Made by a program: the position numbers and the translations under genes
Shown: positions 7,620-36,192 of the stretch, in pieces
How the letters are laid out: every line of letters begins with the position of its first letter
Numbering within the stretch: the first letter of the stretch is position 1
Notes under the pieces: generated by a model
Told to the model about the DNA's origin: nothing
The model's database searches: none
What the model saw: the letters and a program-made list of their open reading frames with translations, nothing else
From: Prasinococcaceae sp. CCMP 1430
Taxonomy: Eukaryota > Prasinodermophyta > Palmophyllophyceae > Prasinococcales > Prasinococcaceae
Length of the DNA stretch: 40,194 nucleotides
Direction of reading: 5' to 3'
Assembly: GCA_013416795.1 (NCBI GenBank)
Contig: RQSC01001332.1
Span: 20,497 to 60,690, forward strand

Positions 7620-7620
7620 N
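7620..7620. other. Single-N assembly gap between LAS1 and TraB
   Basis: One undetermined base at the meeting point of two divergent genes that both lack recognisable 5' ends. It probably stands for a gap of unknown length holding both starts and the promoter region. Confidence 0.6.
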
Positions 7621-8950
7621 GGCTTCGACGCGGTGGCGGCGTGCGCGGCGGATGACGCGTGGCTCGCTGCGCGCCACCCGTCGCTCGCGCCGCTCGTCGC
7701 GAGCGGCGCGCTGCACTGCGTGCGCCGGCCCGACACCGTGCCGGGAGCGGGCCCCGACGCCTACGTCGAGCGGCGCACCGATGGCTACGTCGAGCCGGAG
7801 CTCGTGGTCGTGCTCGGCTCCAGCCACCTCTCCGAGCGCAGCGCTGAGCACGCCGACGCCGTCGTGCGGGCTCTCGAACCGCAGAGCGTGGTCGTTGAGG
7901 TCTGCCGCTCGCGTGCGGCGCTGCTCGACGACGAGAGCGACGCTGGTGATCTCTCCATCTCGGGCCGCGACGGGGCAGTCGGCACCGCGGCGATGGCGGT
8001 CGCGCGGTCGCTGCGGCTCGGCGGCTCCGCGGCAATGCTCATGCGCGTGGCGATGGCGTCGAGTGCTGACGCGCTCGCCGAAGGCGCGGGTCAGCGCGCT
8101 GGGGGCGAGTTCCGCGCGGCCGCACGCGCGGCCGAAGCGGTTGGCGCGGAGGTCGTGCTGGGCGATAGGCCGCTGGAGATCACCCTGCAGCGCGCCTTCG
8201 CTGCGCTCTCGCCGCTCGACAGGCTTCGCTTCGCAGCCAAGATGGCGGGTGCGTTGCAGCAGGCGCGGTGGACGAGCCCATGTGCGCGCGCGCGCTAAGC
8301 CTGGTGCCCCGCCCGCGCGTGCTGACTCGCGCGCAAAACGCCACCGCGAGCGCAGCGTCTGCCGCCGAGGCCCGCCGCGCCGGCAGCGAGGCAGTGCGGG
8401 AGGCAATCGAGGCCGCGCGCACTGAGGACAGCGTTCTGGACGCCGCCGTTGCGGAGCTCCAGTCCTCCTTTCCGGCCATCCTGCGGCCCCTCGTGTGGGA
8501 GCGCGACGTGTACCTCGCGTGGTCGCTCAAGAGGAGCAAAGCAGTGTGCGGCACAAAGGCCGTGGTGGGCGTCGTGGGGAAGGGGCATCTGCGCGGCGTT
8601 GTGCACGCGCTCAAGGCGGACCACGGGGACCTCAGATTCAAGGACCTGACCGGGGGTGCGGTAAGTGCACTGCGCAATCTCCTCTGCGGCGCCAGCGTGC
8701 GCACGCGCTGCGTGTGCTGCTCGCCCACGCGCGCACGTGCGCATGGAATCGGCCGCGTGTGCAGTAGCGATGCTGACGACGTGGCCCATCTCGTCGCTAA
8801 ATCGTGCGGGCGCCTCGCCTCTCGCAGCGCTCGCGGCTGAAGCCGCCGTCCAAGCGTGAGGTCGCGGCGCGGCTCGCCCGCGAAGCGGCGCTACTCGCAG
8901 GCTGCTACGCCCTGTGGGAGGCCCTGCGTCCCGTCCTGGCGATGGGCTGA
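7621..8950 (+). CDS. TraB/PrgY-domain protein, 5' end uncertain
   Basis: Three exons, 7621-8267, 8387-8660 and 8828-8950, join in frame to 347 readable residues. The TraB domain opens with LVVVLGSSHLSERSAEHA and VVEVCRSR. It continues through GGEFRAAARAA and LGDRPLEITLQR, then across the first junction to FPAILRPLVWERDVYLAW and VGVVGKGHLRGV. The last exon gives a short hydrophobic helix (LLAGCYALWEALRPVLAMG) matching the C-terminal membrane anchor of plant and animal TRABD-like proteins. The conserved H (GSSH), E (VVEVCRSR) and GKGH are present. The fold resembles gumN/Tiki hydrolases, and plant members sit on mitochondria or ER. The splice phases agree, although the first donor (GTGGAC) is weak. 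The codon spanning 7618-7620 is TAN, so the sequence before 7621 is not trusted. Confidence 0.84.
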
Positions 8951-9203
8951 TCGCGCACTTGTAAAGTACGCCCACCACATTTGGGGGGGATTCACCATGG
9001 CGAGCGGGCAGCGCTTTCACGCGCACACTGTGGGAGCAGCAGAAGGGCATTGCGCGAGTGAGGGCTCGTGCCACAGCCCACGGGTGCCACATACGAAGCG
9101 AGTTCTTATGACAGCATGTGAGGCGGGGCGGAGTATGATGATGAGTCGGAAGGCCGTGCGGCTACGCGCGGCTGCGTGTCGGTGGTGCCAGAGCGCTGGC
9201 TGC

Positions 9204-9991
9204 TCACTGAGCGAGGAGGAAGGCGCCTGCGGCGGTGACCACGGCCATGAGCACCTCGGGCACTGGTGCGTGCGAGCCAAGCGCGGGAGTCGCACGCGCG
9301 CACGGCATCTCAGCGTCAGCGGCCGACGAGGCGTGGGATTGCAAGGCCAGCGGCACGCGGGCGCCCACGGGCGCGCACGTAACGCACCATAGTGCATCGG
9401 ATACTTGATGGGGAGCTTCTCGCCGATGAGGTTGAACTTCGCGTTGTACGGGTAGAGCACCGCGATGGCCGCGGAGCACGCCGCGCAGATGGGGAGCGCG
9501 GCCTCGGTGTTCAGCTTCGACACGCAGTAGATCAGACCTGGAAAGGATGCTCGCGCGCGTCAGTGCATGCGAGCGCAGCGCTCGCAATAGTCGGAGACGC
9601 GCACGTGCTCCCACACGTGCGCACGCTCACGCGCGCCGCATGCTGCAACCCCATGTGCTCGCGCGCGTCGCACCGAGCAGGGACACCGACTGGCCGCGGA
9701 CCCAGAACGTCAGGAGCGGGGTCGCCGGCGCCTCGAAGTGGTCCGTGATCATCTTGGCGGGGACGGCGAGCATCTGCACACCGTAGATCCCGAAGATCCA
9801 GCTCCAGGCCTTGCAGTACAGCTGGAGCGGGGGCGCGGCGCGCACGGTCAGCTCCCGCGGCCCGCGCGGCGGCGGGCGCAACGCAAGCCAGGGTGCGCGC
9901 GGACGCCGGGGAGGGGGGCAGGGTGGGTGGGTGGGGAGGAGGAGGACGGGCTGGCGCCGCGCGCGCGCACCTCGGGCGTCAGGAACGACAT
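9204..9991 (-). CDS. Small four-helix membrane protein, family not recognised
   Basis: Four exons, 9991-9971, 9821-9674, 9537-9388 and 9262-9204, join in frame to 125 residues. The first exon encodes only seven residues (MSFLTPE). Donors are GTGCGC, GTGCGA and GTGCGT; introns are 149, 136 and 125 bp. The product has about four hydrophobic segments: WSWIFGIYGVQMLAVPAKM, LLTFWVRGQSVSLLGLIY, LPICAACSAAIAVLYPYN and VPEVLMAVVTAAGAFLLA. Short polar loops separate them. No catalytic motif or targeting peptide is apparent and I cannot name the family. All three junctions keep frame and hydrophobic periodicity, which makes the gene model strong even though function is unknown. Confidence 0.75.
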
Positions 9992-10505
9992 GGCTCCTCG
10001 GCGATCGGGTTGGGGGCGGGGTTAGCGATCGTCGGTGTAGGCTGAGTGGCGCGCGCCCCCGCGCGTCCGCGGGTCTGCGCGCGCGCGCCACGCGGGCGCT
10101 CGGGGGAACCCAAGGTTCCAAATACGCACAGATACCCTCTAAAAATTCAAAGTAAGGAATCCATCCCCGATATTTTTAGTATATTTATAATTTACATCAG
10201 CCGGGAGGTCAGCGTGGATTCCAAATCTTCGAGGGGTCAAAGCAGGGCGGGTTCCCGCTCCGTTCCCCCGCGCGCGCGCATTTCGAGCGCGCGCGCGCGC
10301 CTGCAGCGGGGCACGTGGCACGTGGGAGGCCCCCAGGGCGAGGCCAGCGGGCCGTGGCCCCGCAGGCGCGAGGGGGCCGGGGAGGTGGCCCGCGTCCCCC
10401 TCCTCCTCTCTGCCTCTCCCTCCCTCCCTCCCTCTCTCTCGCGCGCGCTCTCTCGCGCGCGGCTGTGGGCGCGGGCGCGCGCGCGGTCTCGGCGCGGGCG
10501 CCGCN
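9992..10505. other. Intergenic or lost carrier sequence, with AT-rich island
   Basis: The stretch from the membrane-protein start to the N at 10505 is mostly GC-rich simple sequence (CG and CT runs at 10270-10500). It contains a sharply AT-rich island at about 10117-10235, with GGAATCC and GGATTCC flanking a TATTTTTAGTATATTTATAA core. No carrier-family protein sequence can be read in it, although the carrier fragment upstream (minus strand) should continue in this direction. Confidence 0.5.
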
Positions 10506-10642
10506 ATAGAAGCCGTTGATGAAACCCTCTTTGCTGGCGATGGTCACCAGAGCGTTGCCCATGCTGCTGTACGTGTTGCCCGCCATCTGCATCCTCCTCC
10601 GCACCGTATCGAGGGGATAGCACACCGTAGTGGCCACCGTCC
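10506..10642 (-). CDS. Mitochondrial carrier family exon, truncated at a gap
   Basis: The minus strand encodes GTVATTVCYPLDTVRRRMQM followed by a helix and KEGFINGFY. The P-L-D-x-x-R-R-R-M string is the Px[DE]xx[RK] signature that ends an odd-numbered helix in each carrier repeat. The RRRMQM form is typical of the third repeat of ADP/ATP and ATP-Mg/Pi carriers of the inner mitochondrial membrane. KEGFINGFY is the expected matrix helix, normally followed by RG and a further helix. Instead the sequence meets the N at 10505 and continues as unrelated CG-rich sequence. Upstream it merges into a GCC-repeat alanine run, so its acceptor is not placed. Only this fragment of a roughly 300-residue protein is visible; it is probably an assembly casualty rather than a pseudogene. 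Confidence 0.7.
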
Positions 10643-12716
10643 CCGCCGCCGCCGCCGCCGCCGCCGCCACGCGCGCGCCATGCGTGCGCCTCGAGATTCT
10701 CGCCGAGCGCGGCGCGCGGGCGCGGCCGCGCGCAGAGGGCGCGGCCGCAGCTCTCATCCGTGCGTCAGTCGGTCGGGGAACCGCGGCGCGCTCGGTCGGC
10801 CGGGGGAAACCCGCCGGCGGGGGGGGAGCAAAATTCGGAATCCCAATCGTATCGTCGGTGCATTGTGTTTGTCGCGACACCGCTGTGCACGTCGGAATTT
10901 AATAACAGAAATCTGCCAACGGCCGCACCGACCGACCGACGGTGCAACGGCAACGACGGGGACACGTCAGGGGGAACACGCCAGCCAATTTCAGCGCCGC
11001 GTCCCGCGTTGGAGTATGGCTGGCGTCAACCTTTCCAGAAAATTGGGGGAGCAGTCATGTTTTTTGTGTGGGGGGGGGGCGGCAGCGGGGCTCGGACCGC
11101 TCGATGCGGGGCGCCGCGGCGCGCCAACGGGGGAACAGTCGCCGTGGATGGCGTGCGCGCATACGTTGCGTGTGTGCGTGTGCGTGCATGTGCGCGTGAT
11201 GGACGACGTGCAGGGCGCCGTTTGCGGGGTCAGCACCTCCGACGGGGTGATGCGCGCGGCGCTGCGCTCCGTGCGACGCTGCTGCGAGACGCTCGAGGCG
11301 CTGCGCGAGGCGCCCGTCGAGGCGCTGTGCGAGGCGCTGCGCTTCGAGTAAGCCAGGGCAAACTCGACCTCGACCTCGCGTCGGTCTTGTCCATGCTAAA
11401 AGGGGCGCTGTGCCGTCGACGTGGCGGCGCCACCGCGTCCAGCCTTCGCTCGGAGTTGGGGACCCCCAACTGGGCCCCGAGCGCCAGACGGGCTCCACGC
11501 GCGAGCGGATCGCCGCGCTGAAGCACGAGGGGCGCAGGCCTCGCGCGCCGCAGGCGGATGCTGGCCGACGCGCCGCGGAAGCGCTCGAGCTGCAGCGGCG
11601 GCGATAGCACGAGCAGCTGGCCATTGCATCGCTCCGGCCCTCCGAGGGCGTGCATGGGTGCTTTACCAATCGGCGGGCCTCGACGGCCGGCCGCGAGGCG
11701 CCGCCGCGGAAAGGAGTGCTGTCTGTACTGCACATGCTCGCTCACGCGATCGAGCGCCAGCCGGCGTCCATCTCCGCGCTCGCGCTGCCCGCGGGACGCG
11801 AGGGCGCGAGCTCGCGAGAGCGTGGAGCGCTACTCCCCGCGTCGTGCCGCGAGTCGCATCGAGCCGTCGAGCTGCGTGTTAAAGGGTCGATGATCCATCC
11901 GCGCACGCCCTCGACGGCGCGCCTGACACCTGACACCCGCGCTCCGCTCGCCAACTTCCGTCCGAGTCCCTCCAGGGCGCGGGGCACCGCGTGCGCGCCA
12001 GGAGCGCGCGCCTCGGCCGCCGAGTCGGCGCCCAGCGTGGGCTGCCGGGTATCGGGCCGCCCCGCACTGTTGCCATCCCACCCACCTCTCGAAACCGTCT
12101 CGATCGCCCTCTTCCTTTTTCCGTTTCAATGGCTTGCTTGAACGTGCTCTCTCGGAGAGTGCGGCGCGCGAATCAATGGCACTCACTGGTCGCACAGCCG
12201 CAAATCGACGCCCATCATTTCTGCGCCTCGAAACACGTCGCTAAAAAAACGAAGATGGGCGCGGTCGGTTCCGACCCTGGGCGCAAACCCACCGGGGGGC
12301 GCCAGTTCGCGGCCACGATCAGCGCGCCCGCGCAGAAAATACAGTGAGACACATCCGCAGCGCAAAAAAAAGATAAAAAAGTTGGGCGGATCCCTCGCAG
12401 ATCCGCGTTCCGTCCCGTCGGTGGTCCCACTTCGCCGCCAACGGTCCCACAGCGCCCCCCCGGCACCCCATCTTGGGGCCCGCGGCGCCTCCGCGCGCGT
12501 GTCCACGCGGCCACCCAACAGTCTCCGGCGCGCGCCGGCCGTCGGTTTCGCGCAACCCGCGCGGCGCGCGCGCCGGCGGCAATCTCTGCCGGGCCTCAGA
12601 CGCGCCGCAGCGTGCGCGTGCTGTTACGTTTGGCGAGGCGGGCGCGCAGGCCCGCGCATGCACGCGCACATGGCACATGCGCGCACACGCGCCGTGCGCC
12701 CGCACACAGAGGCACA

Positions 12717-12860
12717 CACACACACGCACACACACGCATGCACACGCACACAGTCACACACACACAGTCACACACACACAACACAGCACACACACGCACG
12801 CAGCAGTGGAGGCAGGTGCGCACGCGCGCGCGCGCCGCACACACAGCGCGCGCGCGCAGA
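12717..12860. repeat. CA/GC dinucleotide microsatellite
   Basis: Long alternating CA tracts with interspersed CACG and CACT units, passing into CG alternation. It generates spurious His/Thr-rich and Val/Cys-rich open frames on opposite strands, which should not be annotated as proteins. Confidence 0.9.
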
Positions 12861-13302
12861 TCGCCCCTGCTCCTCTGTCACGCGGCGCTTCCGCTCCGGC
12901 GCGCCGCGCCTTTTTTTTTTTTTCCTGCCGGAGCCGATCGGAGGCGGAACCGGAACCGAACCGAACCCGAGCCGCCGCGGAGCTGTGGCCGGCCGGGGGG
13001 CGCCCGCCCGCGCCCGCGGCTCCGCGCTCCCCCGGATCGGATCCGTTCCCTGGTCTGGCGCGCCGCGCGCGCGCGCGCGCCCGCGTTCCGACCGACGCCC
13101 GCCCACCCCCACCCCAACCCCAACCCCAGAGCTTCCATCCCACGTACCGGTACCAGGTACCTAGGTACCATCGCTCTGTTACAAAAAAATAGTACTACTG
13201 TAGACTACTGTACAGTAACGACTCGTTCGTTTTGATAAGCAAATAGGGTCTGACCCCAATGTCGCGTACATTCGTCTGCGATACGTCACTTCGAATCTGT
13301 TT

Positions 13303-13314
13303 GGGTTAGGGTTA
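13303..13314 (+). repeat. Interstitial telomere-like motif
   Basis: GGGTTAGGGTTA lies about 300 bp upstream of the 13620 start codon, in an AT-richer patch. It may be a telo-box-like promoter element or a relic; too short to be a telomere. Confidence 0.5.
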
Positions 13315-13461
13315 CGCCGCCGCGACCGGCCGCGGCCGCGGCCGAAAAGCCGAGTCGCCGACCGCGCAACCGACTCTGCGGCGACGCGATCGATCCGATC
13401 GCCCGCCGGTTAAAAAAAAAAAAAAAGACCGGCGACGCGCGGGTGCGCGCGCGCACGCGGC

Positions 13462-13478
13462 NNNNNNNNNNNNNNNNN
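13462..13478. other. Assembly gap (17 N)
   Basis: Seventeen undetermined bases in CG-rich sequence upstream of the 13620 start codon. The real length is unknown. Confidence 0.95.
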
Positions 13479-13619
13479 GGGGGTGCTTCGTTCTTGGTGC
13501 GCGGCGCGAGGGGACGCTGACGCGCCGCGCGCCCACGCACGCCCCGCTCGCGGCCGGCGGTGGCAGTCGGCAGCGCGCCGCGCGGGGCCTCGCCGCCGCT
13601 CAGGCGAGGGAGGGGGTTG

Positions 13620-15995: not shown

Positions 15996-16639
15996 ACTAC
16001 TATTCATGATGGGCCGCGCCAACACGGCGCGGCGACCGCCGAGACGGCATGTGGCATATGCACACTGCTTTTGCTGACTGCGTGTTTGCTCTCGCCCGTA
16101 TACTACTACTCAACAATTGGTCGCACCTTACAGATACTTCGAAGCAAGTCGGACGCAGCATAGTTTGCCTCCTCTCTCCGCGAGTATGCCAGCGCTACGT
16201 GCGAAGGATGCCCGAGTGAACCCAGAGACTGGAGGAGGGAAGGGCGAGGGGAAACGCGCGCCGTCAAACCACTAAGCGTAACACCAATGTTTAGCACTGT
16301 CAGACTGTGTGTCACCGACCACAGGAGGCCAATGCTGGGCGGCGGACAGTCAGAGACGAGCGAGGCCCAGTGCTGGCCGCTACCTTACGCGTCGTTGGTC
16401 GTAGCGGCCAGGACATGGCCGGGCGCGCCTAGCGGAGCCGCCGCGCTCAGCACTTCTCGCCGCGCCCCCGGTTTCAACAGCCTCCCGTGCGCGCTTCGGT
16501 ACTCGTTTGATGCGCGGGAAATATAGCAGGGTGGTTGGTGTTTGAGGGGATGCCACAGCGCGCGCGGCCTCGCCGCGGTGGCGGCCGGCCACCGCGTGCT
16601 CATCGAGCTCGTGGTGTGTCGGTCGCCGCGCGCGCCGCG
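15996..16639. other. Intergenic and promoter of the PLAC8-like gene
   Basis: About 640 bp without a supported gene. Immediately after the orphan's stop is an AT-richer stretch (16000-16150) suited to a 3' end. GC rises again towards 16640. An in-frame ATG at 16550 is an alternative start for the next gene. Confidence 0.5.
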
Positions 16640-17762
16640 ATGGGGTGGTTTTCGTCCTCTTCTCCTGCCACGCCCGCGGGCGCTGCCGCCGCCTCGGGCG
16701 AGGCTGAGCCCTCCAGCGCGGCAGGCGGAGCGCCCGGGGAGAGCCCCGACTCGCCGACCCCCGAGGCGGCCGCAGCGGCGGCCGCGGCGGCCTCAGCGGC
16801 GACCGCCGCAGCCGCGACCGCTGCGGTCGGGGCGATGGTCGGCAAGGCGGAGCCGGAGGGCGCAGCCAAGAAGGGCGGCGGCTGGACCTCGTACGTTGAA
16901 AAGCAGCTCGGCCTCAAAAGCGCCGAGGAGCTCCGGAGTGAGAAGGCGGCCGCGCCAGAGAAGGAGCGCACCGAGGCCGAAGGGGAGGCGGCGCCGGACT
17001 TGACGCGCTTTCCGTTCCGCCCATTTGGCTGCTGCACCACGGCGTACGCAGTGCCGACGTTTGCGCCGCTGTCGTTGACCAACCCTGCCTGCCTCGTCGG
17101 CCAGCACGTTTCGCTGATGACCGGTGAAGACTATCACTGCGGCTCGTGCTTTCCGCTCGGTGCGGGCGCGCCCGCCAAAGTGCGCACGCTCCCGCTGGAA
17201 GTCCTATGCGTGTTACTGACAGTGCCCAAATGTACATGCGCGCGCGCGCGCGCACACACACACACACACAGAGGATGGGCCGTGCGCGAGCTGCAACCGC
17301 TGTTGCGCCAATAGAGTGTGCCGGATGGGCACGAAAGGCTGGGCGGTCTGCGCTTGCTTCAGCTGGCTGGACTTTCTTCCGTGCTGCTCATGCCCGCCCG
17401 TCGGCTGGTTCTTCTGCGTGCCGCACTTTTCTATGTCCGCGGCTGCCGCTACATATCTCCTCCGCCAACGCATCATCTTCGCGCACGACGTGAAGCTCGA
17501 TCCGCCCGGCGCCAAAGGCAAGGTAGAGGGCATGGGAACCGACCGCATGGGAGCGGGCGCGCCACACTGCTGCTACTGCTGCCTGCTCACGCAGCAGGTG
17601 GCCTTTCTGGAGGCCGTCACTGGGAAGGACGCGAGGATGCGCGCGCGCGAGGCCAGCCTGAGGGAGCGGAAGGCGGCGGCCGACGCCAGCGCTGCTGCTG
17701 CCGCCGATGAGGAGGCCGCGCCGCAACAGGAGCAGATGGCGAAGACGTCCAAGGACGACTGA
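16640..17762 (+). CDS. PLAC8-like cysteine-rich membrane protein
   Basis: Two exons, 16640-17159 and 17317-17762, give 321 residues. The intron uses a GTGCGG donor and contains a CG/CA microsatellite (17237-17271). After an Ala/Ser-rich N-terminus and a charged segment (to about residue 125) comes the cysteine-rich part: FGCC, NPACLVG, YHCGSCFPLVC, then CACFSWLDFLPCCSCPPVGWFFC, a TYLLRQRI step and HCCYCCLLTQQVAFLEAV. The last two blocks match the order in PLAC8/DUF614 proteins (R-x-R-x..., then C-x-x-C-x-x-x-Q-x-x-RE-like). Plant members act at the plasma membrane in cell-size control and metal tolerance. The leading CC block is rearranged relative to textbook PLAC8, so membership is likely but not certain. 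The C-terminus is a charged, Ala-rich helix. The acceptor could instead be three bases earlier. Confidence 0.68.
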
Positions 17763-20068: not shown

Positions 20069-23000
20069 ATGGCGCCGCGCGCGTCGGCATCCGAGCTGCC
20101 GCCCGAGGGCCACCAGGGCGACAGTGGCGGCGGCGCGAATGGGGGAGCATACGCCGGCGCGGGTGCGCACCACGCCACGGGGGGGCGTATGGCATCGCGT
20201 ACTCTCGGCGGCAGCGGTGGTGGGTACACGAACCGTCTGGCAGCGGCCGCTGCCAGCTCGGACCGCCGCGCGCACAGCCAAGCCAGACCCCAGCAGCAGC
20301 GACGCCCGCAACACCTGCGGTCGCTCGCGACGGGTGGTACGCATGAGCGCGCGCTTGCGGCGCAGGCCAGCGACAGGGCGCGCGCGCACGCGAGCGAAGG
20401 GCTCGGTCGAAGCCTCGGAGGCGCGCATGGCAGCGGCGATGGGCCCCGCGCCTACAGCGGTAAGGGCGCGCACGGGGCACGCGGCGAGAAGGTCGTTGGC
20501 AGTGGCCGTGCGTTCGGCGACGGCGCGATCGAGCGCTCGCCGGGGGTGGCGGGCCTCGCATTGCTGAGCGACCTGGACTTGCCGCCGGAGCTCGACGAGC
20601 CGCTCACGCGCCAAGCGCTCTCGCGCGACGAGCTCGATGACTGGCTCGAGCGCCATACCGGCGGGGCGGAGCGCTTCGCGTCGGTGGCGCTCTACTGTGA
20701 GCTTCGACTGCGCGCGTCCCAGCGCGCCACGGTGGCACTGCCGTCTCCCAACACGACGCGTACGCTCGTGGCCGCGGAGCTCCTCGCCGCGCTCGTCACC
20801 AAGTCGCTCACGCGGCTGCCCATTCTGATCGAGCTCCTTCGCGAGGTGTTCTCGGCGCTCTTCGTCGACCCCGACGAGGCATCGCCGCAGCCATACTTTG
20901 TGGCGTACGCCGAGGGCATGGAGGAGCTCTCGCGCTTGCGCGCCGACCTCGCCGAGGCGCACCGAGCGGCGGGCTTTTGGCAGCGCAACGCCGAGAATCG
21001 CCTGGCCTCGTACTCGCGCGCAATGACGATGCTCTTCGCGAGCGTCGCGCACGAAAAGTTTCACTTGTGGCGGACCTCTGTGGTGCAGCGGAAGATGACG
21101 CGCCAGAAGCTCGACCTGGCCGTCACTAAGTTCAAGCGCCGCGCCGAGCTCATGCGCGCTTTCTCGCACTGGCGCGACGCTCTGCTGCAAAGCAAGCTTG
21201 ACGTGATGTCAACAACCGCGGATGAGCTTCGGCAGACCACGGTCACGCAGGCCGAGCGCATACGCGAGCTCGAGGGGCTGCTCCAGGCGGAGCAAGACGC
21301 CCACAGCGAGACCAAGATGGAGATGCAGAGACTCAAGGACCGGCTGGCTGAAGGCGACAATATCATCAAGGAGCAGGCTGAAGAGATCGAGCGCCTCAAG
21401 GCGAAGTTGCTCGCCATGGAGGAGGAGAGTGCGATGGGCGCCCGCTACGCGGCCGAGGTGCGGCGAGGGCGGCGCGCGCTCGCCGCGCTCGCCGCGGACG
21501 AGGAGGCCGAGCTGCGCGCGCGAATGAAGGCCCTTGTCGATGGCACCTTCCAGGACTGCTCCGTGCTTCTCAAGCAAGACGAGGATACACAGTCACTGCT
21601 GGAGGTCGACCCCAGCCAGATCATGCTGCGTTGGGCCAACTTCCACCTGCAGCGACAGGGCTTGGACACCATCCGCAACTTTGGCGCCGACCTGGCGGAT
21701 GCCAAGGAGCTCGTACCACTGCTCAGAGCTGCCCTGCCGGACTCGGTAGACGCGAAGCTCGCGGATGAGGTGGACCCACTGCTCATTGCGCAGAAGTGCT
21801 TGGGCGTCATGCGCCAGCGCATCGACCTGCCCGAGGACGTGATTTTGCCCGCCGAGGTTCTGGACAAGACAACGGCCGATTTGGTGTACGTGGCTCTCGA
21901 GCAACTGTTCAGCTTCGACGCGGGCCTAGACCTCGACCGCGTGAGCCAGGCACCGACCGAGCACATCGACACCGTGGTGGTTCGAGCTAGGGAATCGCTG
22001 GCACAATCGCCGCTGATCCACATGGATGAGCCCGGCGAGGACGACGACGAGTGCATCGGCGCCGGGGCTCGGTCCCTCCTCGAGGCGATGCGAGATGCGC
22101 GACGCATGGTGAAACGCGAGGAGGAGAGCATGTGGGGACTGCACGCCACCTATATGGATGCGCGCCGTCGAGCGGCCAACCTGAGCAAGGAGTGCCTGGC
22201 GGCGCGCGCGCGAGGCAACGTGCGTGAGATGGTGGACGACAGCGCGGAGGACATGCAGGTGGCCTACACGCAGCTCGTGCCAGCACGTGTGATGGACATC
22301 ATTCCCGAGGGCCCAGGCCAGGCCGAGGCGCTCGACATGGTGAGCTGCGTGCTTGGGAAGCACTACAAGGACCTGAAGCGCATTTTCGTCTTCTACTCGG
22401 CGGGCGGCTTCATGTCGAGCGCCGAGTACTGGAAGCTAATGAAGGATGCAAAGATTCCCACCAAAAAGTTCGGCTCGGCCAGGATCGATCTGGTGTTCCT
22501 CAAGGCCAATAAAGAATACACGGACCGCGAGGCCGCAGGCGGCGTCGCAAGTGAAGACAACCCTGATACGGAGCTGATGCCTGCCGAGTACGTCGAGGCG
22601 ATCGTGCGGCTTGCGTGGGGGCGCGCAGGGGAGAAGGGCGAGCTGCACGAGGTCGTGGAAAAGTTCATCGAGCAGCAGATCCTGCCCAACGCGTGCAAGA
22701 GCGACGCCGAGCAGTTCCGACGCATGCTGAAAGAGCCGGACTTCGCCGCCGTGCTGGCCACGCACCGCCCCGCACTACGCAAGATCTTCAGAAAGTACAG
22801 CGGCGCCGACGCGAGCGACGCGGACGGCCTCACCATGAATATGAAGGAGGTGGCGCAGCTCTTCAAGGACTCGCTGCAGATCTCCGGGGGGTTCACGCAC
22901 CACGACGTGAAGAAAATCTTTGGGAACGTCCAGGATGCGGAAGGCAATCACGGCGACGGCGCGGACGACGACGACGAGCTCGTCTTTACCGAGTTCATTG

Positions 23001-23128
23001 AGCTGCTCGTCTGCACGTGCGTGTACCGCGACCCGAATCCGTTCATGCCCCTCGACAAGCGCTTCAGCGCGTATGTGACGAAAGACCTCGTGAAGCCGTT
23101 GAAGGCCGCAAAGAAGGTGAAGTTCTAA
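20069..23128 (+). CDS. Coiled-coil protein with calponin-homology-like and EF-hand/p25-like modules
   Basis: A 1019-residue open frame. Residues 1-165 are low-complexity. About 165-320 is helical (DELDDWLERHTGG...LLREVFSALFVDP). About 335-380 has repeated HxxFxxWR units (EKFHLWRTSVVQRK, MRAFSHWRDALLQSK) like short IQ/SFI-type helices. About 385-455 is a strong coiled coil (TQAERIRELEGLLQ, EEIERLKAKLLAMEEE). Around 505-620 LLEVDPSQIMLRWANFHL and GLDTIRNFGADLADAKELV resemble a calponin-homology domain of the fimbrin type. The C-terminus has two EF-hand-like blocks, one recalling p25-alpha/TPPP (LKRIFVFYSAGGFMSSAEYWKLMKDAKI) and one with an acidic loop (DADGLTMNMKEV...DDDDELVFTEFIELL). A cytoskeletal, probably axonemal, role is inferred from this architecture. 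The start is uncertain (see 19947-20042). Confidence 0.8.
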   Translation: MAPRASASELPPEGHQGDSGGGANGGAYAGAGAHHATGGRMASRTLGGSGGGYTNRLAAAAASSDRRAHSQARPQQQRRPQHLRSLATGGTHERALAAQASDRARAHASEGLGRSLGGAHGSGDGPRAYSGKGAHGARGEKVVGSGRAFGDGAIERSPGVAGLALLSDLDLPPELDEPLTRQALSRDELDDWLERHTGGAERFASVALYCELRLRASQRATVALPSPNTTRTLVAAELLAALVTKSLTRLPILIELLREVFSALFVDPDEASPQPYFVAYAEGMEELSRLRADLAEAHRAAGFWQRNAENRLASYSRAMTMLFASVAHEKFHLWRTSVVQRKMTRQKLDLAVTKFKRRAELMRAFSHWRDALLQSKLDVMSTTADELRQTTVTQAERIRELEGLLQAEQDAHSETKMEMQRLKDRLAEGDNIIKEQAEEIERLKAKLLAMEEESAMGARYAAEVRRGRRALAALAADEEAELRARMKALVDGTFQDCSVLLKQDEDTQSLLEVDPSQIMLRWANFHLQRQGLDTIRNFGADLADAKELVPLLRAALPDSVDAKLADEVDPLLIAQKCLGVMRQRIDLPEDVILPAEVLDKTTADLVYVALEQLFSFDAGLDLDRVSQAPTEHIDTVVVRARESLAQSPLIHMDEPGEDDDECIGAGARSLLEAMRDARRMVKREEESMWGLHATYMDARRRAANLSKECLAARARGNVREMVDDSAEDMQVAYTQLVPARVMDIIPEGPGQAEALDMVSCVLGKHYKDLKRIFVFYSAGGFMSSAEYWKLMKDAKIPTKKFGSARIDLVFLKANKEYTDREAAGGVASEDNPDTELMPAEYVEAIVRLAWGRAGEKGELHEVVEKFIEQQILPNACKSDAEQFRRMLKEPDFAAVLATHRPALRKIFRKYSGADASDADGLTMNMKEVAQLFKDSLQISGGFTHHDVKKIFGNVQDAEGNHGDGADDDDELVFTEFIELLVCTCVYRDPNPFMPLDKRFSAYVTKDLVKPLKAAKKVKF

Positions 23129-25281: not shown

Positions 25282-25315
<34 letters not shown>

Positions 25316-26214: not shown

Positions 26215-26245
<31 letters not shown>

Positions 26246-26725: not shown

Positions 26726-29700
26726 ATGAGCGCGGGTGGGGCGCCGGCGGAGGCCTCGGACGGCGCGGCGTCGGCGTCGGGGGGCGGCGGCGGCGGCGCG
26801 GCCTCGGCGTCGGGCGGCGGCGCATGGAGGAGCTGGCTGCCGTACGGCGGCAGCGGCAAGCCCGCCGAGCTGAGGGTGGAGCTCGACTACGAGGTGGGCG
26901 CCGAGGGGGATGGCGGCGACGATCGCGCAACCGTGACGCTGCGCGAGAGCCTGTTCTCCGACGACGCGAGCGCGGCGCGGGCGCGCGACTCGCTCGTGGC
27001 GGCGCTCGACGCCGCGACGTCGGGGTCGCGGCGGCCGCGGCTNNNNNNNNNNNNNNNNNNNNNNNNNNNNNNNNNNNNNNNNNNNNNNNNNNNNNNNNNN
27101 NNNNNNNNNNNNNNNNNNNNNNNNNNNNNNNNNNNNNNNNNNNNNNNNNNNNNNNNNNNNNNNNNNNNNNNNNNNNNNNNNNNNNNNNNNNNNNNNNNNN
27201 NNNNNNNNNNNNNNNNNNNNNNNNNNNNNNNNNNNNNNNNNNNNNNNNNNNNNNNNNNNNNNNNNNNNNNNNNNNNNNNNNNNNNNNNNNNNNNNNNNNN
27301 NNNNNNNNNNNNNNNNNNNNNNNNNNNNNNNNNNNNNNNNNNNNNNNNNNNNNNNNNNNNNNNNNNNNNNNNNNNNNNNNNNNNNNNNNNNNNNNNNNNN
27401 NNNNNNNNNNNNNNNNNNNNNNNNNNNNNNNNNNNNNNNNNNNNNNNNNNNNNNNNNNNNNNNNNNNNNNNNNNNNNNNNNNNNNNNNNNNNNNNNNNNN
27501 NNNNNNNNNNNNNNNNNNNNNNNNNNNNNNNNNNNNNNNNNNNNNNNNNNNNNNNNNNNNNNNNNNNNNNNNNNNNNNNNNNNNNNNNNNNNNNNNNNNN
27601 NNNNNNNNNNNNNNNNNNNNNNNNNNNNNNNNNNNNNNNNNNNNNNNNNNNNNNNNNNNNNNNNNNNNNNNNNNNNNNNNNNNNNNNNNNNNNNGCGGCG
27701 CTGGCGCGCGCCCCCGGTGCCGTGCAGCAGCTGCTCGCCGCGGCGCTCAGCGGCAGCGCGCACGCCATCGAGGAGGGCTGCGGGGCGCTCGGCGCGCTCG
27801 CCGAGAGGGGCGGCGCGCCGCTGGCGTGGTTCGGGGGCGGTGCGGACGAGGAAAAGGGTGGTGGTGGTGGCGATGGTGCTGGAGGAGGAGGCACCGCCGG
27901 TGGCGGCGCTGGTGGCGGCACCGTCGCGGCAGCGAGCCTCCTGCCGATGCTCGCGCCCGGCGTATGCGACGCCAGCCTGGTGAGCGCGCTGCGGATGCTC
28001 GCAGCGGTGTGCCTCGCGTCGCGCAGCGCGGCCGAGGCGCTTATGGTGGGAAACGAGGTTGTCGGCGAGGGCCTCATTGATGAGTTCGGAGAGGGCTTCG
28101 AGGGCGATGAGGTGCACCGCCGAGTGGAACGTGGCGCCGTCGGGAACGCTGGGGAAGGCGACGGAAGCAGCGGTGACAGAAGTGGCGGCGGGACGCTGCG
28201 TGCCGATCCGCCGGCGTCGCCCTGCGCCGAGCTCTACTTGCGCGTGCTCGCGCTCTGCCGCGCCGGGGACGATTTGGGCACCGCAGGTCTTAGGAAAGAG
28301 CGCGCGCCGGCGGTGCGGAGGCACGCGCTCCTATGCCTGGGCAACGCCGCGCTGGCGCCGCGCGTGCGGGCGCGCGTGCTGGGGGACGCGCGCGCGATGG
28401 GTGCGCTCGCCGACGCCGCGGCCGTTGGCGGTGCCACCGAGCGCGTGCGCGCGCGAGGAGCAGCGCCACGCGTGCCGCTGCTGCCGCGGCCGCCGCAGCC
28501 GCGGCTGCCGCGGCAGACGGCGCGGCGCGTGACCCTTCTGGAGGCGGCGGAGGCAGCCTGCCTTCGACGCCCACGGCGTCCACCCCAACGCTCACCAAGG
28601 CCCACAAAGCGCTCAGCGGGCTGCTGCGGGGATTTTTCTCCGCGTCGACTCCCGACGTGCGTGACCCTGAGGGCGATGGTGACGATGGCATTGCAGAGGA
28701 GAGCACGCCATCGCCGTCAGCTGCGGTATTCGCGGTGTCCGAAGAGGCCGAAGCCGCCGATGCGGTGGGCGCGACGGACGGGGGTGAGGACGTGAGCATC
28801 GTTACAGGCATGGACACGCAGCAGGCGCAGCCACCACAACCAAGCGATACGGGAGGTGCCGATAGCCCCCGCAGAGCAAACGATACCACGCCGCCCCACG
28901 ACGACGCGCGGACGCCACAGCAAACACCCGAAAATGTACTCAGCAGCCACCTTGGCACTAGTGCCGACGGTGAGGAAAGCAACGAGGAGGGTGATTCTAG
29001 TGGCGACGCCCTCGTCTCGCCGCCGACGACTCAACCCAGCCAGCTGGCGGACCCGCTGTCGCCCGCCGCGGCGAGCCCTGCGAGCCCCTCGCCCGCCGCT
29101 CTCGGCCGTCTGGTGCACTCGCCGCCGCGCACGATCCGGAGCAGTGCGACCACAGGCGCGAGCCCGAGCCCGCTGCGCAGCGCCAGCCTCGAGGCGCGCT
29201 CGCCCGCGCGGGTGGTGGTCGGTGGCGCGGGCGGCAGCGTGCGGGGCGGCACGCCTGCCGTCTCCACACCCGCGCCGCCCTCGCCGGCGGCCATTCTGGA
29301 GGCCGAGGCCGGCGAGGGCGCGGAGCTGGCCAGGGAGGCCGTGCGCCTGGCGTCCGTTCGCGCGCTAGCGATCCTCGGCTGCAACGAGCGCGTCGCTCGC
29401 TGCGTGGGGCAGCGCTCGCGCGCCGAGATGACTCGCACCGGCGTGCGCGTGCTCAGCCTCGACGGGGGCGGGATGAAGGGCCTCGCGACGATCGCGCAGC
29501 TCAAGGCGATCGAGGCTGCGGCGGGCAAGCCCATCCAGGAGCTCTTCGACCTCATCGTGGGCACGAGCATCGGCGGGCTCCTCGCGGTCGCGCTGGTCCT
29601 CAAGCGCATGACGCTCGACCAAGTCGAGACCGAGGTCTTCATGCGCATGTCCAAGCAGGTCTTCAACGACGCCAACGACGGCGCCGACGCCGCGAGCGGC

Positions 29701-31209
29701 GACGGGGCGGCCGACGGGGGCACGGGGGGAAGCACGCAGGAGACGTGGCTCGCTGGCCTGGGCACGCTGGGCTCGGGGCTCGTCAAGCGCGGCACCAGCC
29801 AGGTGGCGATGCTGCTCAGGGGCGTCAAATACAAGAGCAATCTCCTCGAGGCCTTCCTGAAGGAGTACGACTTCAAGGCGACCATACCCGACGACGAGCT
29901 CGGCTTTCCGCAGCACCTGCTCGCGACGATCGACGGCGAGAGCGTCGAGCACTCGAGCTACCACAGGATGATCGACACCAGCGTGTGCGGCGGTCCCAAG
30001 GTGGCGACCGTCGCGACGCACACGCGCTACTCCCCCGCGCGCCCCTTCGTCTTTCGCAACTACAACCTGCCGCCGGGCACCGCCGAGGCGCTGGACTCGC
30101 CGGCCGACCCGCGCGGCGGCGGCGCGAACGGCACGGCCGGCGGGCGCGCCGACCAGCGCGCGTCGCGCGCGCGCGCGCGCGCCTTGCTCGGCAGCGCGAA
30201 CTTCTCGACGTGGGAGGCCGTGCGCGCGAGCAGCGCCGGGCCCTACTACTTCTCCGAGTTCACCGTCGGCGCCGACCGGTGGCACGACGGCGCGTGCATC
30301 GCCAACAACCCCGCGCTGCTCGCGTGCCGCGAGGCGCAGTGCCTGTGGCCCGGCGTGCCCGTCGGCGTGCTGGTGTCGGTGGGCACGGGGCGCGAGCCCA
30401 CCAAGCCGCGCGAGCGCGCGGGCAACTGGATCGTCGACGGCGGGACGACGCTCGTCGAGATCGCCGCGGGCACGCACGAGCAGGACGACGTGCTGCGGGC
30501 GCTCCTGCACGGCGTCAACGGCGTTGGTGAGGAGCGGGGTGGGCGCGCGGGATCGGGGGCGGGAAGCGCGCCGGCCTACTTCCGCTTCCAGCCGACGGCC
30601 GACGTGTACGGCTGCGAGATCGACGACACCGACGACGCCAAGCTCGCGCGCGTCGCCCGCGCGGCCGAGGAGTACGTGGCGGCGCACGCGGACGCCGTGA
30701 AGGAGCTCGTGCGGTTGCTTAGCGACGACGGCGGAAATGTCGGTGAGGTGGGTGGCGGGAGGGCGGGAGAGGGTGATGGTGGTGATTTGGATGATGGTGG
30801 GGAAGGCGAGGGCGGTGGTGACGTCCTTGATGCTCGCAGTGGCGAGGGTGATGACGAGGTGGATGCCCATGTCAGCGACGGTGCTATCAATGAAGTCGGG
30901 AGCGGTGAAGAGGCCATAACGCGCGGGGTGCAGGGCGCGGACGTAGCCGCAGCGCATCGCCCTCACAGCGGAAAGACTGCGGACCGCACGGCAGCTGTGC
31001 ACGACGCACGCGTGCGCTCTGCCGAATCTCTTGGCGGCGTAGTAGGAGGCTGGGCAAACGAGCGCGTAGAATGTGGTGCGCCTGAAGGGAGCGCCGCTAA
31101 CGCTGGTGGCGACATGGACGCCCGCATGAACAAGCTCGAGCGCAAGCTCGACATGGTGCTCAACGCGCTCGTGGGCCGGCCCGACAGCGGCGGTGCGGGT
31201 CAGGGGTGA
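26726..31209 (+). CDS. ARM-repeat/patatin-like phospholipase, broken by gap and frame shift
   Basis: One gene is inferred from ATG 26726 to stop 31209. The N-terminus (AWRSWLPYGG, LRVELDYEVG) recalls the start of large plant ARM/LRR/patatin phospholipases. A 652-N gap (27043-27694) follows. After it come ARM-like helices (AVQQLLAAALSGSAHAIEEGCGALGALA; VRRHALLCLGNAAL). Between about 28420 and 28470 the reading frame moves by one base inside GC repeats. The second part has an acidic/Ser-Pro linker and then the patatin domain: LSLDGGGMKGL (oxyanion DGGG), GTSIGG with nucleophile Ser at 29566-29568, and catalytic Asp in WHDGA at 30286-30288. The Ser-Asp dyad is intact, so a calcium-independent phospholipase A2-type acyl hydrolase is expected. 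The acidic Gly-rich tail ends in a short coiled coil (MNKLERKLDMVLNALV). Confidence 0.8.
27043..27694. other. Assembly gap (652 N)
   Basis: Undetermined bases inside the ARM region of the phospholipase gene. The flanks read in the same frame as represented, but the real length is unknown, so that agreement means little. Confidence 0.97.
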
Positions 31210-31360
31210 GGACCGTCGGGTGGTGGCATTTGGTAGCACGGTTGCTGGCGGCGCTGGTGTTGGTGGCGTGGACGGTAGCGCTGCTGGCGGCGGTGCGCGT
31301 AGCGATGAAATGGTGTAATGCAGTGGTGATTGTGGCTCGGACGTTGAGCAGAGGCTTACA
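30961..31360 (+). repeat. Duplicated module, copy 1
   Basis: Includes the phospholipase tail and the stop of the antisense LRR exon. Shared landmarks with copy 2: CTGTGCACGACGCACGC, ATGAACAAGCTCGA, GACGGTAGCGCTGCTGGCGG and GGCTTACAACAAAAGCT, in the same order. Similarity continues into the antisense LRR sequence. Confidence 0.88.
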
Positions 31361-32079
31361 ACAAAAGCTCCTTGATGGAGCCGAGGGCCTCGCGGAGGGC
31401 TGTTTTGCCCTCGGCGCTGATGCCGTTGCTCCGGAGGTTGAGCGACTTCAGCGCCGTGTTGGAGCCAAGGCCCTCGCCGATCGCCGCGGCGCCCTCGGCG
31501 CCGATGTTATTCTCGCTGAGGTTGAGCGACTGCAGCGTCGTGTTGGAGCCGAGGCCGTTGCCGATCGCCGCGGCGCCCTCGGCGCCGATGTTATTCTCGC
31601 TGAGGTTGAGCGACTGCAGCGTCGTGTTGGAGCCGAGGCCGTTGCCGATCGCCGCGGCGCCCTTGTTGCAGATAGCGTTGCCGCCGAGATCGAGTGACTG
31701 CAGCGTCACGTTGGAGCGTAGAGCCTCGCCGATCTTCGTGGCACCCTCAGCGCCGATGGAATTGCCACCGAGGTAGAGTGACTGCAGCGTCGTGTTTGAG
31801 CGCAGGGCGTCGCCGATCTTCTCGGCACCAGCAGCGCCGATGGAGTTGACGTAGAGGTGTAACGACTTTAGCGCTTTGTCGGACTTCAGGCCGTTGGCAA
31901 TCGCCTTGGCCCCCTTGTTGCCAATGTAGTTGCTCCCGAGGTTTAGGGACTGGAGTGTCGTGTTGGAGCCGAGGTCCTTGCCGATCGCCACGGCGCCCGC
32001 GGCCCTGATGTGGTTAGTGCTGAGGTTGAGTGACTGCAATGAAGGCTCGAAGGCGCCTTGGAGCAGCTGAATCTGAATG
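31356..32079 (-). CDS. Leucine-rich-repeat (ribonuclease-inhibitor type) last exon
   Basis: The minus strand reads about eight 28-residue repeats of the form LQSLNLSENNIGAEGAAAIG..LGSNTT, the RI/NLR-type LRR, ending EALGSIKELLL and stop TAA at 31358-31356. No ATG exists in the frame; the only start-like codon is TTG at 32039. Just upstream, a pyrimidine-rich CTTTCTGCCTGCCTGCTAG at 32080 makes a good acceptor, so this is best read as a 3' exon starting at 32079, with the 5' exon not found. Alternatively it is a headless copy. Such LRRs bind partner proteins; nothing attached reveals a specific role. Two central repeats are identical at the DNA level, indicating recent repeat gain. It is convergent with and partly duplicated alongside the phospholipase tail. 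Confidence 0.7.
31476..31643 (-). repeat. 84-bp perfect tandem duplication of one LRR unit
   Basis: 31476-31559 and 31560-31643 are identical by inspection, and 31644-31662 begins a third partial copy. The period equals one 28-residue LRR, so the frame is kept. Confidence 0.92.
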
Positions 32080-32105
32080 CTAGCAGGCAGGCAGAAAGGT
32101 CGTCG

Positions 32106-32378
32106 ATGGAGGGGTCAGGAATCGATGCGAAGGAGGTCGAGGCCTTGAAAGAGGCGGTGATCGCTGCCATCGGCGAGGCGACGAGGGAGCTCTCCGATAA
32201 GGCGACCAGGAGGAGCATGCGGGTTAAGAATCAGCGTGTCACAAGCAAGGGCAACAGCACCGCCGTTGGCAATAACTTTGGCAACCTGGAGGTGAACCAC
32301 GGCAAAGTCAAGAAGAAGAAGAAAGAAAAGAAGGAGAACAAGAAGAAGGGCGCACGCAATGAGGGGTGGAGAGGTTGA
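32106..32378 (+). CDS. Small lysine-rich orphan ORF
   Basis: Ninety residues from ATG 32106. A helix (AKEVEALKEAVIAAIGEATRELSDKATR) is followed by NSTAVGNNFGNLEVNHG, then a poly-lysine tail (KVKKKKKEKKENKKKG). The composition, less GC-biased than its surroundings, and the organised first half suggest a genuine reading frame or the last exon of a gene. No family is recognised. It lies between the two duplicated modules, 26 bp from the LRR exon acceptor on the opposite strand. Confidence 0.4.
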   Translation: MEGSGIDAKEVEALKEAVIAAIGEATRELSDKATRRSMRVKNQRVTSKGNSTAVGNNFGNLEVNHGKVKKKKKEKKENKKKGARNEGWRG

Positions 32379-32525
32379 CTGAACTTCGTAGAAAGAGATC
32401 TAAACAGAGCGAAGAATATCACTAGAAGGGCACAGAATAAATGAACATCATCGCTCGAGGCTTGCCCGCGCGCGCTCGCGCAGGTCGCCGAATGAAGAAT
32501 GCCGCGCGCGCGCGCCCAACCACCA

Positions 32526-33160
32526 CCCCACAGCGGAGGGCCTGCGGAGAGCACGGCTGCTGTGCACGACGCACGCCTGCGCTCTGCCGATTCTCTTGAC
32601 GGCGTAGCAGGCAGGAGGCTGGCAAAACGAGCGCGTAGAACTCGTCGTGCCTGAAAGGAGCGCCGGTACCGCTGGCGGAGACATGCAAGCCCGCATGAAC
32701 AAGCTCGAACGCAAGCTCGACATGGTGCTCGCCGCCCTCGTTAGCCGGCCGGGTAGCGGCGGTGCGGGCCAGGAAGGTAACAGTCAAGCGGGGGCGTCTA
32801 GTGGCGCTGTCGCTGACGGCGCTGGCTTCGGTGCCGTGGACGGTAGCGCTGCTGGCGGCGGTGCGCGTAGCGAGGAGGCTGTGTACGGCAGCGCTGACTG
32901 TGGCTTAGGCGTTCAGTTGAGGCTTACAACAAAAGCTTCGCGTTGGTACCGAGGCCCTTAGGTTGAGCGACTGCAGCGCCGTGTTAGAGCCGAGCCCCTT
33001 GCAGATTGTCGCGATACCCTTGATGCTTATGCGGTTTTTGCTCATGTTGAGCGACTGCATTGTCGAGTTGATGCCGAGAACCGTGCCGGTTGTTGCGGCG
33101 CCAACGGCGCCGATCTTTTTTCGCTTAGGTCGAGCGACTGCAGTGTCGTGTTGGATCCGC
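32526..33160 (+). repeat. Duplicated module, copy 2 (diverged)
   Basis: Same landmarks and order as copy 1. Its plus strand again encodes GGDMQARMNKLERKLDMVL, but the frame continues into a different tail and stops at 32961. The LRR part is degenerate. Confidence 0.88.
32940..33160 (-). pseudogene. Decayed LRR copy
   Basis: The minus strand still shows LRR units (NTTLQSLDLSEK, INSTMQSLNMSKNRISIKG, SNTALQSLNL), but the frame breaks at an A-run (GAAAAAAGATC, one base short of the pattern needed for EKKIGA). A deletion removes most of the last repeat before the conserved TTTTGTTGTAA end. It is homologous to the LRR exon at 31356-32079. Confidence 0.75.
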
Positions 33161-33346
33161 GCGAAAGCTACGGACGGTCTCGCGTCCGTGGATGGGTTTC
33201 CCCCCCCCCCCGTCGAGCAAAAGGTGAGACTATCTCTCTCTCTCTGTCTCTCGTGCTCTCAGGCAGCACGCGCGCGCGCGCGCGCTCACGCCCCGACGCC
33301 GCGCTGTACGGCAGCCAAGCCGGAGGAGCCTTCTCAATCGGTACTT

Positions 33347-36050
33347 TTACGACGTGGTAAAAAAGCCCGCCATGCACAGCACGCCGTCCATGAGCTCACC
33401 CACGCGCCCCCACGCGCTCGCCGTCGCTCCGTGCAGCTCGCCGCACGCCTCGCGCAGGTCGGCGCGGCTCCCCAACACCTCGGCGTGCGTGGCCAGTAGG
33501 CGCGCGAGCAGCGCCTGCACAAGCTCGAAGTTGCCGCCGCGCTCCGTCTCGCGGCGCAGCATCGCCAGCACGGTGCCGAGCGCCTCGCGCGTGGCGACGT
33601 CGTCGCCCACCACCTCCAGCTCGGCGATGGCCGCGTCGAGCTCCCCCGGCGAGAGCGCCCGCAGCTCCTCCAGCGCCTCGCCGCCGTCCGCCTCGTGTGC
33701 GCGCGCGAGCGCCGCCAGCCGCAGCGCGCCCGCGCCCTCGACGCCCGGCGCGACCCTCCGCACGCGCTTGTTGGCCGGCGCCGGGTCAGTATCGTCCTCG
33801 TCCTCCATATCGCCGTCGCCGTTCTGGTCCGCCCCCCCCACACCAAAGAAGCTCACCGCCGCGTCCACCGCTCCCGCCGCGTTGCCGCTGGTGGCCTTTT
33901 CCAGGTCGCCAAGCCCCGGCAGGAAAAAGGGCGCGCTCTCCGGCTTGGACACGGCCTCGGCGGGCTTGGAGCGCGCGCGGATCTCGTCGAGGCGCACGAG
34001 CCCCTGCCACTTCGCCTTGGCGAGCATGCCGAGCGTGACGGCGCCGCCCTCCAGCGGCTCGGGCCCGGCGCCTTCGTTGGCGTTCGCCCCCCCGAGCTCG
34101 GCCTCGGCGGCGTCGAGGATGGCGCGGCCGTCCAGGGCGTCCTCGTCGTCGGCGCCGTCCACCTCCACGCCGTCGCTGTCACTCCCAGGGTCGCCGGCCA
34201 GCCCGAGCGCCTCGTCGTCGGAGTCGAGCGCCACGCCGTCCGTGCGCGCCCACCCGGACTCGCCCGCGGCGTCGTCGCCCCCCTCCTCGCCGTCGTCCTC
34301 GCCCGCGCCCACCTCGGGCATGGCCACGCGCCGCCGCATCCTCGCGCTCGCCCCCTCGCCGCCGCCGTACACCTCCGAGTTCGCCCACAGGTAGACGGCG
34401 CGCTGCTCCGAGTGGGCGGTGGCCATCGCCGCGCCGTTGGGCGAGAGCGCCACGGCGACGGCGGGGCTCGCCAGCCGCATGACGTCCCTGCACGACGAGG
34501 CCTGCACGTCCCACACGCGCACGGTGGCGTCCATGGCGGCGCTCACCACCAGCCGCGCGTCGGCGGAGAAGGCCAGCGCCGTGGGCCTGTCAACGTGGCC
34601 GCCGAAGCGCCGCACCACGCGCGGCGCGTGCGGGGCGGCGTCCACCACGCGCACGTCCAGGTCGGCGCACGCCACCGCCAGCAGCCGCGCCGACGCGTGC
34701 CACGCCGTGCACACGGGCGCCGCGGGCAGCGGCAGCAGCGCGCGCAGCCGTCGCGATCGGAAGGCCCACACCTTCACCTCCCCCCCCACGCCGGCGCCGC
34801 CGGCCTCGCCCGCGCACACCGCCACCGACGCCGCCACGCGGTTGGCGGCGCACGCGTGCACGCCGACCACCGCGCCGGCGTGCGCCGCGTTGTCCGTCCC
34901 CAGCCGCGCGTCGGCGTACGAGCCGCGGTGCGCGCCGCTCTGCACGTTGAAGCGCTCCACGCGCCCGCCCTCGGTGCCCAGCAGCGCGTAGTTGCCGCAC
35001 GCGCTCATGCACACGCAGCTCACGGGCCGCAGCCTGAGTTTTTGGAGAAAGAAGGTGCGTGTGTGTCAGTGCAGCAGTCTTCGTCAGCATCACAGACGCA
35101 CACCGACATGTTCCTCAGCGCGACATTCGCGCGCACTCGCGCGCATTCGCGCACCTCTTGCCCGGGGGCGTGAGCACGTGCTCGCCCACCGCCAGCTTGT
35201 CCAGCCGCCAGGTGTACGCCGACGTGGCCCCCTTGTGCGCGGTGACGCAGCTCGCCCAGTCGCGCTCGCGCGCGGCGCACGCGGCGAGCGCGCGCACGGG
35301 CGGCAGGCGCAGCTCGGCCTCGGAGACGCCCAGCTTGCGCGCGCGCGCCGTGACGCCGCCCTGCGACACCTCGCGCGACTGGTGGTCCTGGAAGGTGGAG
35401 AGCGCGCGCAGCGTGCGGTCGTCGCCAGCCGAGAGCAGCCAGCGCCCCTCGATGCCGTGGTACGCCAGGTGGCGCGGCGGCGCGGCGTGGCCGCAGCGCG
35501 AGCGCAGCAGGCGCGCCGCGGCGCCGTGCGCGGCGTCGGCCTGCGTGCTCCCGAAGGCCCACTCGCGCAGCGCGTTGTCGCTCCCCGCCGACAGCAGCAT
35601 GCACTCGGCGGCGGCGCCCGACGCGGCGCGCAGCGCGTGCAGCGCCGTCACGGCGCCGTCGTGCGCCTCCTTGATGACTCNGTCGTGCAGCGCCACGCGC
35701 CCGTCGGCGAGCCCCGCGGCCACCACGTCGAGCGCGGGCGCCGCCACGAGCGCGCGCACGCCCGCGCCGCCGAAGGCGTCGAAGGTGTACAGCTTTCGCC
35801 GCGTGGCGACGTTCCACAGCTGCATGGCGCCGTCGGCGCCGCCCACCAGCACCTTGTTCAGGTACGTGGGCGGGTGGCACAGCGCCGTCGGGACCATGCC
35901 GCCCAGGTCGATGACGAACTCCGGCTCGATTTCGGTCGGGGGCGACTTGCGCGGTGCGCCGGCGCCGTCGCCCGGCGCGGGCGCGCGCGGCACCGCCCAC
36001 GCGAGCAGGCTTCCGTCCCTCGCCGCGCCGAGCAGCATGTCCGCATCCAC
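33347..36050 (-). CDS. UTP21: UTP21/WDR36 small-subunit processome protein, damaged by gaps
   Basis: Exons 36050-35155 and 35033-33347 join in phase over a 121-bp intron (GTGCGC donor). WD-repeat landmarks follow UTP21 order: TYLNKVLVGGADGAMQLWN, ALDVVAAGLADGRVALHD, EAHDGAVTALH, ILSAGDD-like LLSAGDDRTLRALSTFQDHQSREVSQ, ERDWASCVTAH, AYTWRLDKLAVGEHVL, VCMSACGNYALLGTEGG-VERFNVQSG. A C-terminal helical UTP21 domain follows (GELDAAIAEL..., ELMDGVLCMAGFF). The protein is a component of the nucleolar U3 snoRNP complex in 18S rRNA maturation. Two defects appear: at the N (35681) about one WD repeat expected between ALHD and EAHDG is missing, and the N-terminal roughly 200 residues are absent upstream of 36050, next to the N at 36192. 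These are probably assembly losses. Confidence 0.88.
35681..35681. other. Single-N assembly gap inside UTP21
   Basis: The N falls between two segments that in UTP21 homologues are separated by roughly 50 residues, so real sequence is missing here. Confidence 0.7.
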
Positions 36051-36191
36051 TCCTCGACCTTCATCGAGGCGATGCCAGCGCCGGCTGCGAGGGCGCCTGC
36101 GGTGAGCAGCGCGCCCGAGGGGCTCCCAAGTGGCGCGCTGAGCACATCCGCCGCCCCGCCGCCGCCCGCTGCGCGCGCCGCCGCGCCACCC

Positions 36192-36192
36192 N
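36192..36192. other. Single-N assembly gap near the UTP21 5' end
   Basis: The N lies upstream of the first readable UTP21 repeat. The remaining N-terminal exons are not found on the far side. GC content drops abruptly after the N, consistent with a join. Confidence 0.55.

Follow-up and report, generated by a model that had tools for sequence, protein, structure and literature searches.

By convention, some scaffolders such as SSPACE write a one-base placeholder at the join between two contigs, and a single n is also what some scaffolders write for a negative gap estimate. Contig ends themselves often contain misassemblies, as stated in a section of the GapFiller paper (PMC3446322). For earlier, mostly short-read assemblies, the part of PMC9516821 considered here describes the missing sequence as biased to GC-rich 5' exons and promoters.

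The stretch of DNA analysed in this study, called the window below, comprises the 40,194 nucleotides of C46:20497-60690 and is part of a 24.5-Mb genome in 145 contigs. Its GC content is 60-79% per kilobase of called bases, and its gene content (LAS1, UTP21, a mitochondrial carrier) points to a eukaryote whose genes are spliced. Counting N over the window gave four single Ns, at 7620, 10505, 35681 and 36192, all of them present as listed in a preliminary description of this DNA. The remaining Ns form two runs only, one of 17 (13462-13478) and one of 652 (27043-27694). A run of As stands shortly before the 17-N run, with GGGTTAGGGTTA about 150 bp to its left, and the 652-N run lies upstream of a frame at 28333-31209 that matches Pfam Patatin and is patatin-like phospholipase in type. 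Between the two runs there is an open frame of 1,019 aa (20069-23128), which contains a calponin homology domain and matches p25-alpha in part.

With a probability of about 0.88, we consider that the lone Ns are joins between contigs, some of them with chimeric ends, and not single unread bases. The features on which this reading rests are given below in window positions, where a foreign cap is a piece copied from another contig.

6109 to 7508, minus strand: LAS1 frame without its N-terminus (Pfam Las1 positions 34-148 only)
7509 to 7619, plus strand: foreign cap A, an exact 111-bp copy of C75:521748-521858
7620, no strand: lone N, probable join between contigs (N count; flanks without suffix-prefix overlap)
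7621 to 8660, plus strand: TraB/PrgY/gumN-like gene in two frames, 7621-8295 and 8268-8660 (Pfam, both scores below the curated cut-off)
10505, no strand: lone N, probable join between contigs (N count; flanks without overlap)
10506 to 10652, minus strand: foreign cap B, an exact 147-bp copy of C120:106100-106246
33350 to 36043, minus strand: UTP21/WDR36, incomplete, with the N-terminus absent beyond 36043 and about one blade absent at 35681
35681, no strand: lone N, probable join, with about 45-51 UTP21 residues absent (Pfam and human WDR36 alignment)
36044 to 36169, minus strand: foreign cap D, an exact 126-bp copy of C89 sequence (matching interval C89:70274-70402 on the minus strand)
36170 to 36191, no strand: 22 bp between cap D and the N, present among the fetched loci at its own place only
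36192, no strand: lone N, probable join between contigs (N count; flanks without overlap)
36193 to 36512, minus strand: foreign cap C, an exact 320-bp copy of C100 sequence (matching interval C100:25344-25667 on the minus strand)

The two flanks of each lone N were compared with each other. The suffix-prefix match was 0 at all four Ns, and with 300 bp taken on each side no direct stretch common to both sides was longer than 11 bp. These values contradict an overlap-type gap, in which the contigs truly overlap and the sequence is duplicated rather than missing; the single-n habit of some scaffolders for negative gap estimates would speak for such a gap, and we regard it as extremely unlikely here. 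It is possible that the caps caused a false negative gap estimate.

When the flanks were searched against the same genome, four pieces turned out to have exact copies on other contigs: 111 bp on C75, 147 bp on C120, 320 bp on C100 and 126 bp on C89. These caps adjoin three of the four Ns in the window (7620, 10505 and 36192); three of the copied pieces abut the N exactly and the fourth, cap D, stops 22 bp before it. No exact foreign piece was found by the flank search at 35681. The alignment of cap C has 325 positions with one gap, and its exact run stops at 36512. Caps A-D are also the sole exact runs of at least 40 bp common to the window and a comparison set of 225,739 fetched bases from loci outside C46, a set that includes the cap donors and overlapping copies. 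An N-free control of 5,001 bases gave, with self matches excluded, one match of 49 bp at 98%, one of 40 bp at 90% and two of about 190-200 bp at 72-73%; since it held no match like the four exact copies of 111-320 bp at or near Ns, the caps exceed what is expected by chance. Short matches of about 75-91%, many of them of low complexity, were excluded from the cap count. Weaker matches were seen near 10505 (77-89%, within the low-complexity stretch to its left) and near 35714-35799 (78%, within C46). Hi-C ligation junctions were considered as the source of the caps and rejected: GATCGATC occurs twice in the window, at 13388 and 22483, and is so absent from the cap junctions. Outside the window it has 4 occurrences in 127,009 readable bases.

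At the other location of each copied piece, no N lies within 1.5 kb at any of the four donors, the donor loci of about 3 kb being continuous sequence, and open frames continue through the copied piece at the donors of caps A, B and D. On C75, cap A has its home in an open frame with a Pfam DNA_methylase match in the part downstream of the copied piece. Cap B belongs on C120 to an open frame of 367 aa that matches Mito_carr in three stretches (237.9 bits) and continues beyond the residues KEGFINGFY. The home of cap D on C89 is a 248-aa open frame with a DUF1664 match below the cut-off; as chance often produces long frames at such a GC content, the evidence from this frame is weak. The donor loci look like the true homes of the copied pieces. 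Cap A also has a 90% copy of 106 bp on C8 (locus L006), which suggests a second related methylase gene.

The piece beside 10505 had been taken for a mitochondrial carrier exon stopping after KEGFINGFY, and the N for an interruption of a recognisable local gene. Neither statement held, as the exon is the exact 147-bp copy from C120, coding on the minus strand, and no carrier sequence was detected beside it. Mito_carr covers residues 73-125 of the frame at 10506-10880, which is approximately the copied piece, and the local frames on either side of 10506-10652 yielded no further carrier match (on the left, three minus-strand frames adjoining the N matched no family). What was read as a carrier "gene" at 10505 is thus a fragment copied from a gene that appears complete on C120. 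No damaged local gene was seen at 10505, where sequence may or may not be missing. A different account would treat the Ns as clean gaps in otherwise correct local sequence, the carrier exon being part of a local truncated gene. It fits 35681, where the search gave no exact foreign piece, and it fits the missing N-termini of LAS1 and UTP21. However, exact foreign copies adjoin the other three Ns, and the carrier has a continuous home with three repeats on C120 while the local side frames are without further carrier match, so that at 7620, 10505 and 36192 this account is contradicted, real duplications aside. We judge it to be unlikely, at long odds.

Both LAS1 and TraB had been described as lacking their 5' ends at 7620. 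For LAS1, the N-terminus is indeed missing: the match to Pfam Las1 (149 positions) starts at position 34, which is residue 2 of the piece ending at 7509, and in an alignment to a solved Las1 the next residue, 3, falls on residue 59. The place of the break was not correct, since 7509-7619 is foreign and the break is therefore at 7508, 111 bases before the N. LAS1 homology ends where cap A starts. The readable genome has one Las1 match, at positions 34-148, and profile positions 1-33 are absent from it. For TraB, the claim of a lost 5' end holds less far, as the start of the domain is present and just the ATG is absent; the frames cover profile positions 12-154 and then 179-253 (both below the Pfam cut-off), and between the N and the TraB domain there is no in-frame ATG, GTG codons only.

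In UTP21, about one WD repeat had been called missing at 35681, and the alignment to homologues that was proposed along with this claim bears it out, as about 45-51 residues, or one WD blade (PF25171, WDR36), are skipped. On the profile, the match to PF25171 positions 96-178 (90.7 bits) runs up to the N, and a weak one of 19.2 bits takes up again after it at positions 230-265, with 51 skipped. In the comparison with human WDR36, alignment of the left piece stops at 275, while in the right piece residue 23 lies opposite 343, which by extrapolation is a jump from 275 to about 321, or about 45 residues. The UTP21 reading frame is preserved on both sides of 35681. Such preservation of frame would suit the reading in which each N is one ambiguous base and the sequence is otherwise continuous, but short of a true blade loss in UTP21 the 45-51 absent residues argue against it, as do the foreign pieces beside the other three Ns, and we give it almost no weight.

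The UTP21 N-terminus, said to be missing by 36192, was indeed not found. Both 36044-36169 and 36193-36512 are foreign, which places its break at 36043, 148 bases short of the N. From 36513 to the window end, PF25171 positions 1-95 were not found in the 10 minus-strand segments tested out of the 23 listed. A family search of the genome gave 77 matches. One of them, on C90 (PF25171 positions 6-94), seemed to complement the local piece; it was considered as the missing N-terminus and rejected, as the fetched frame scores far better as a general WD40; other WD40 matches in the genome include one on C15 at positions 7-225. Donors or missing exons may escape notice because part of the genome reads as N, as does most of C46 beyond the window.

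LAS1 and UTP21 belong to families that are required for ribosome production, and this bears on whether the caps could be biological. Real insertions, i.e. filler DNA at break repair or template switching, might have produced recent exact repeats that broke the assembly and left the Ns. Exact repeats can break assemblies, and the pieces are exact copies of unlinked loci, as this explanation would have it. A real insertion would, however, break LAS1, for which there is only one match in the readable genome, and UTP21 as well, and exact pieces of 111-320 bp ending at or near an N suit contig ends better than real insertion; we therefore think it highly unlikely. In a variant to which we attach just as slight a probability, the caps would be genuine, very recent captures from other chromosomes at breaks in C46, interrupting one LAS1/UTP21 allele, with the intact alleles collapsed or lost in the assembly.

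Lone Ns also occur elsewhere in the genome. Loci L016-L040, of which 127,009 of the 202,689 fetched bases are readable, contain five more; some of these stretches were chosen near donors, and the sample is not random. Flank searches found no exact or near-exact foreign piece at any of the five, two of the searches giving weak matches only. Capped lone Ns are thus three out of nine tested, all on contig C46, and caps are not a general feature of lone Ns here (0/5 elsewhere). Two of the five cut recognisable genes directly at the N:

L028:1956, contig C10: lone N, with FBPase_glpX (GlpX-type fructose-1,6-bisphosphatase) from profile position 34, 208.7 bits
L023:7034, contig C120, about 1.8 kb from the donor of cap B: lone N, with tRNA-synt_1e (PF01406, class I tRNA synthetase) from position 66, 29.2 bits (cut-off 27)

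The N-terminal parts of GlpX and the tRNA synthetase were not found in the left flanks (1,955 and 6,649 readable bases, searched with crude motif patterns). At the third lone N (L027), one frame was without a Pfam match, and the remaining two Ns showed no sign of a lost gene. An additional lone N is present on contig C72 (L048:1311). The GC content near the nine Ns has a mean of 0.728 compared with 0.685 at random places, a weak and suggestive difference (z of about 2.1). The nine lone Ns fall within 166,530 readable bases, of which 39,521 belong to the window and 127,009 to L016-L040; if this sample, which is not random, were typical, about 1,300 would be expected across 24.5 Mb.

An assembly artefact, rather than biology, is the most likely origin of the lone Ns and the caps. 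We account for them as follows. A lone N would be a placeholder where contigs were ordered yet neither overlapped nor filled, in which case the N count is uninformative on the true gap length. Local sequence would be absent at three places: at 35681, in the interval between the divergent 5' ends of LAS1 and TraB (7508 to 7621), and where the N-terminus of UTP21 should be encoded (36043 to 36513). Of the four joins, three would have a chimeric contig end on one or both sides, with 111 to 320 bp from unlinked loci; chimeric reads at contig ends, or a gap filler on a wrong path, may each have had this effect. The absence of microhomology at the cap junctions might have told against wrong gap filling, but this argument was given up, since it would need the true local continuation. 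The caps would be absent from the real chromosome at these places; we infer both this absence and the assembly step that produced them. The join at 35681 simply lacks sequence, and the other three add wrong sequence too. The general claim of the preliminary description, that single Ns stand for missing sequence, is thus upheld, with 35681 as the clearest case and by homology at the 5' ends of LAS1 and UTP21, and the description went wrong in taking foreign DNA at three of the four Ns as local.

Annotation of this assembly would cut LAS1 and UTP21 short and add a spurious carrier exon and methylase fragment, and the caps would suggest false duplications between contigs. Truncated or fused genes had been foreseen for automated annotation; the truncation is seen in LAS1 and UTP21, and the caps yield false exons and false duplications besides. 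A screen for lone Ns and exact caps is advisable before gene loss, exon shuffling or gene fusion is claimed from this genome.

The kind of artefact described here is ordinary. The lone Ns resemble the single n of SSPACE-type scaffolders, a one-base placeholder at a contig join, with the difference that the flanks here do not overlap. A printed statement of the single-n convention was not found in the parts considered of PMC8110574, PMC5368935, PMC3446322 and PMC6733440. As far as the section of the GapFiller paper used here goes (PMC3446322), wrong bases at gap edges occur both there and in our window, but GapFiller trims 10 bases by default, whereas here the wrong stretches extend over 111 to 320 bp and have their matches on other contigs. 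In the part of PMC9516821 that we draw on, the likeness lies in losses at gene 5' ends in GC-rich sequence, represented in this GC-rich genome by LAS1, the UTP21 N-terminus, GlpX and the tRNA synthetase. That work deals with vertebrates and with absent sequence, whereas in our data there are also foreign caps, one internal loss (35681) and a weak GC enrichment.
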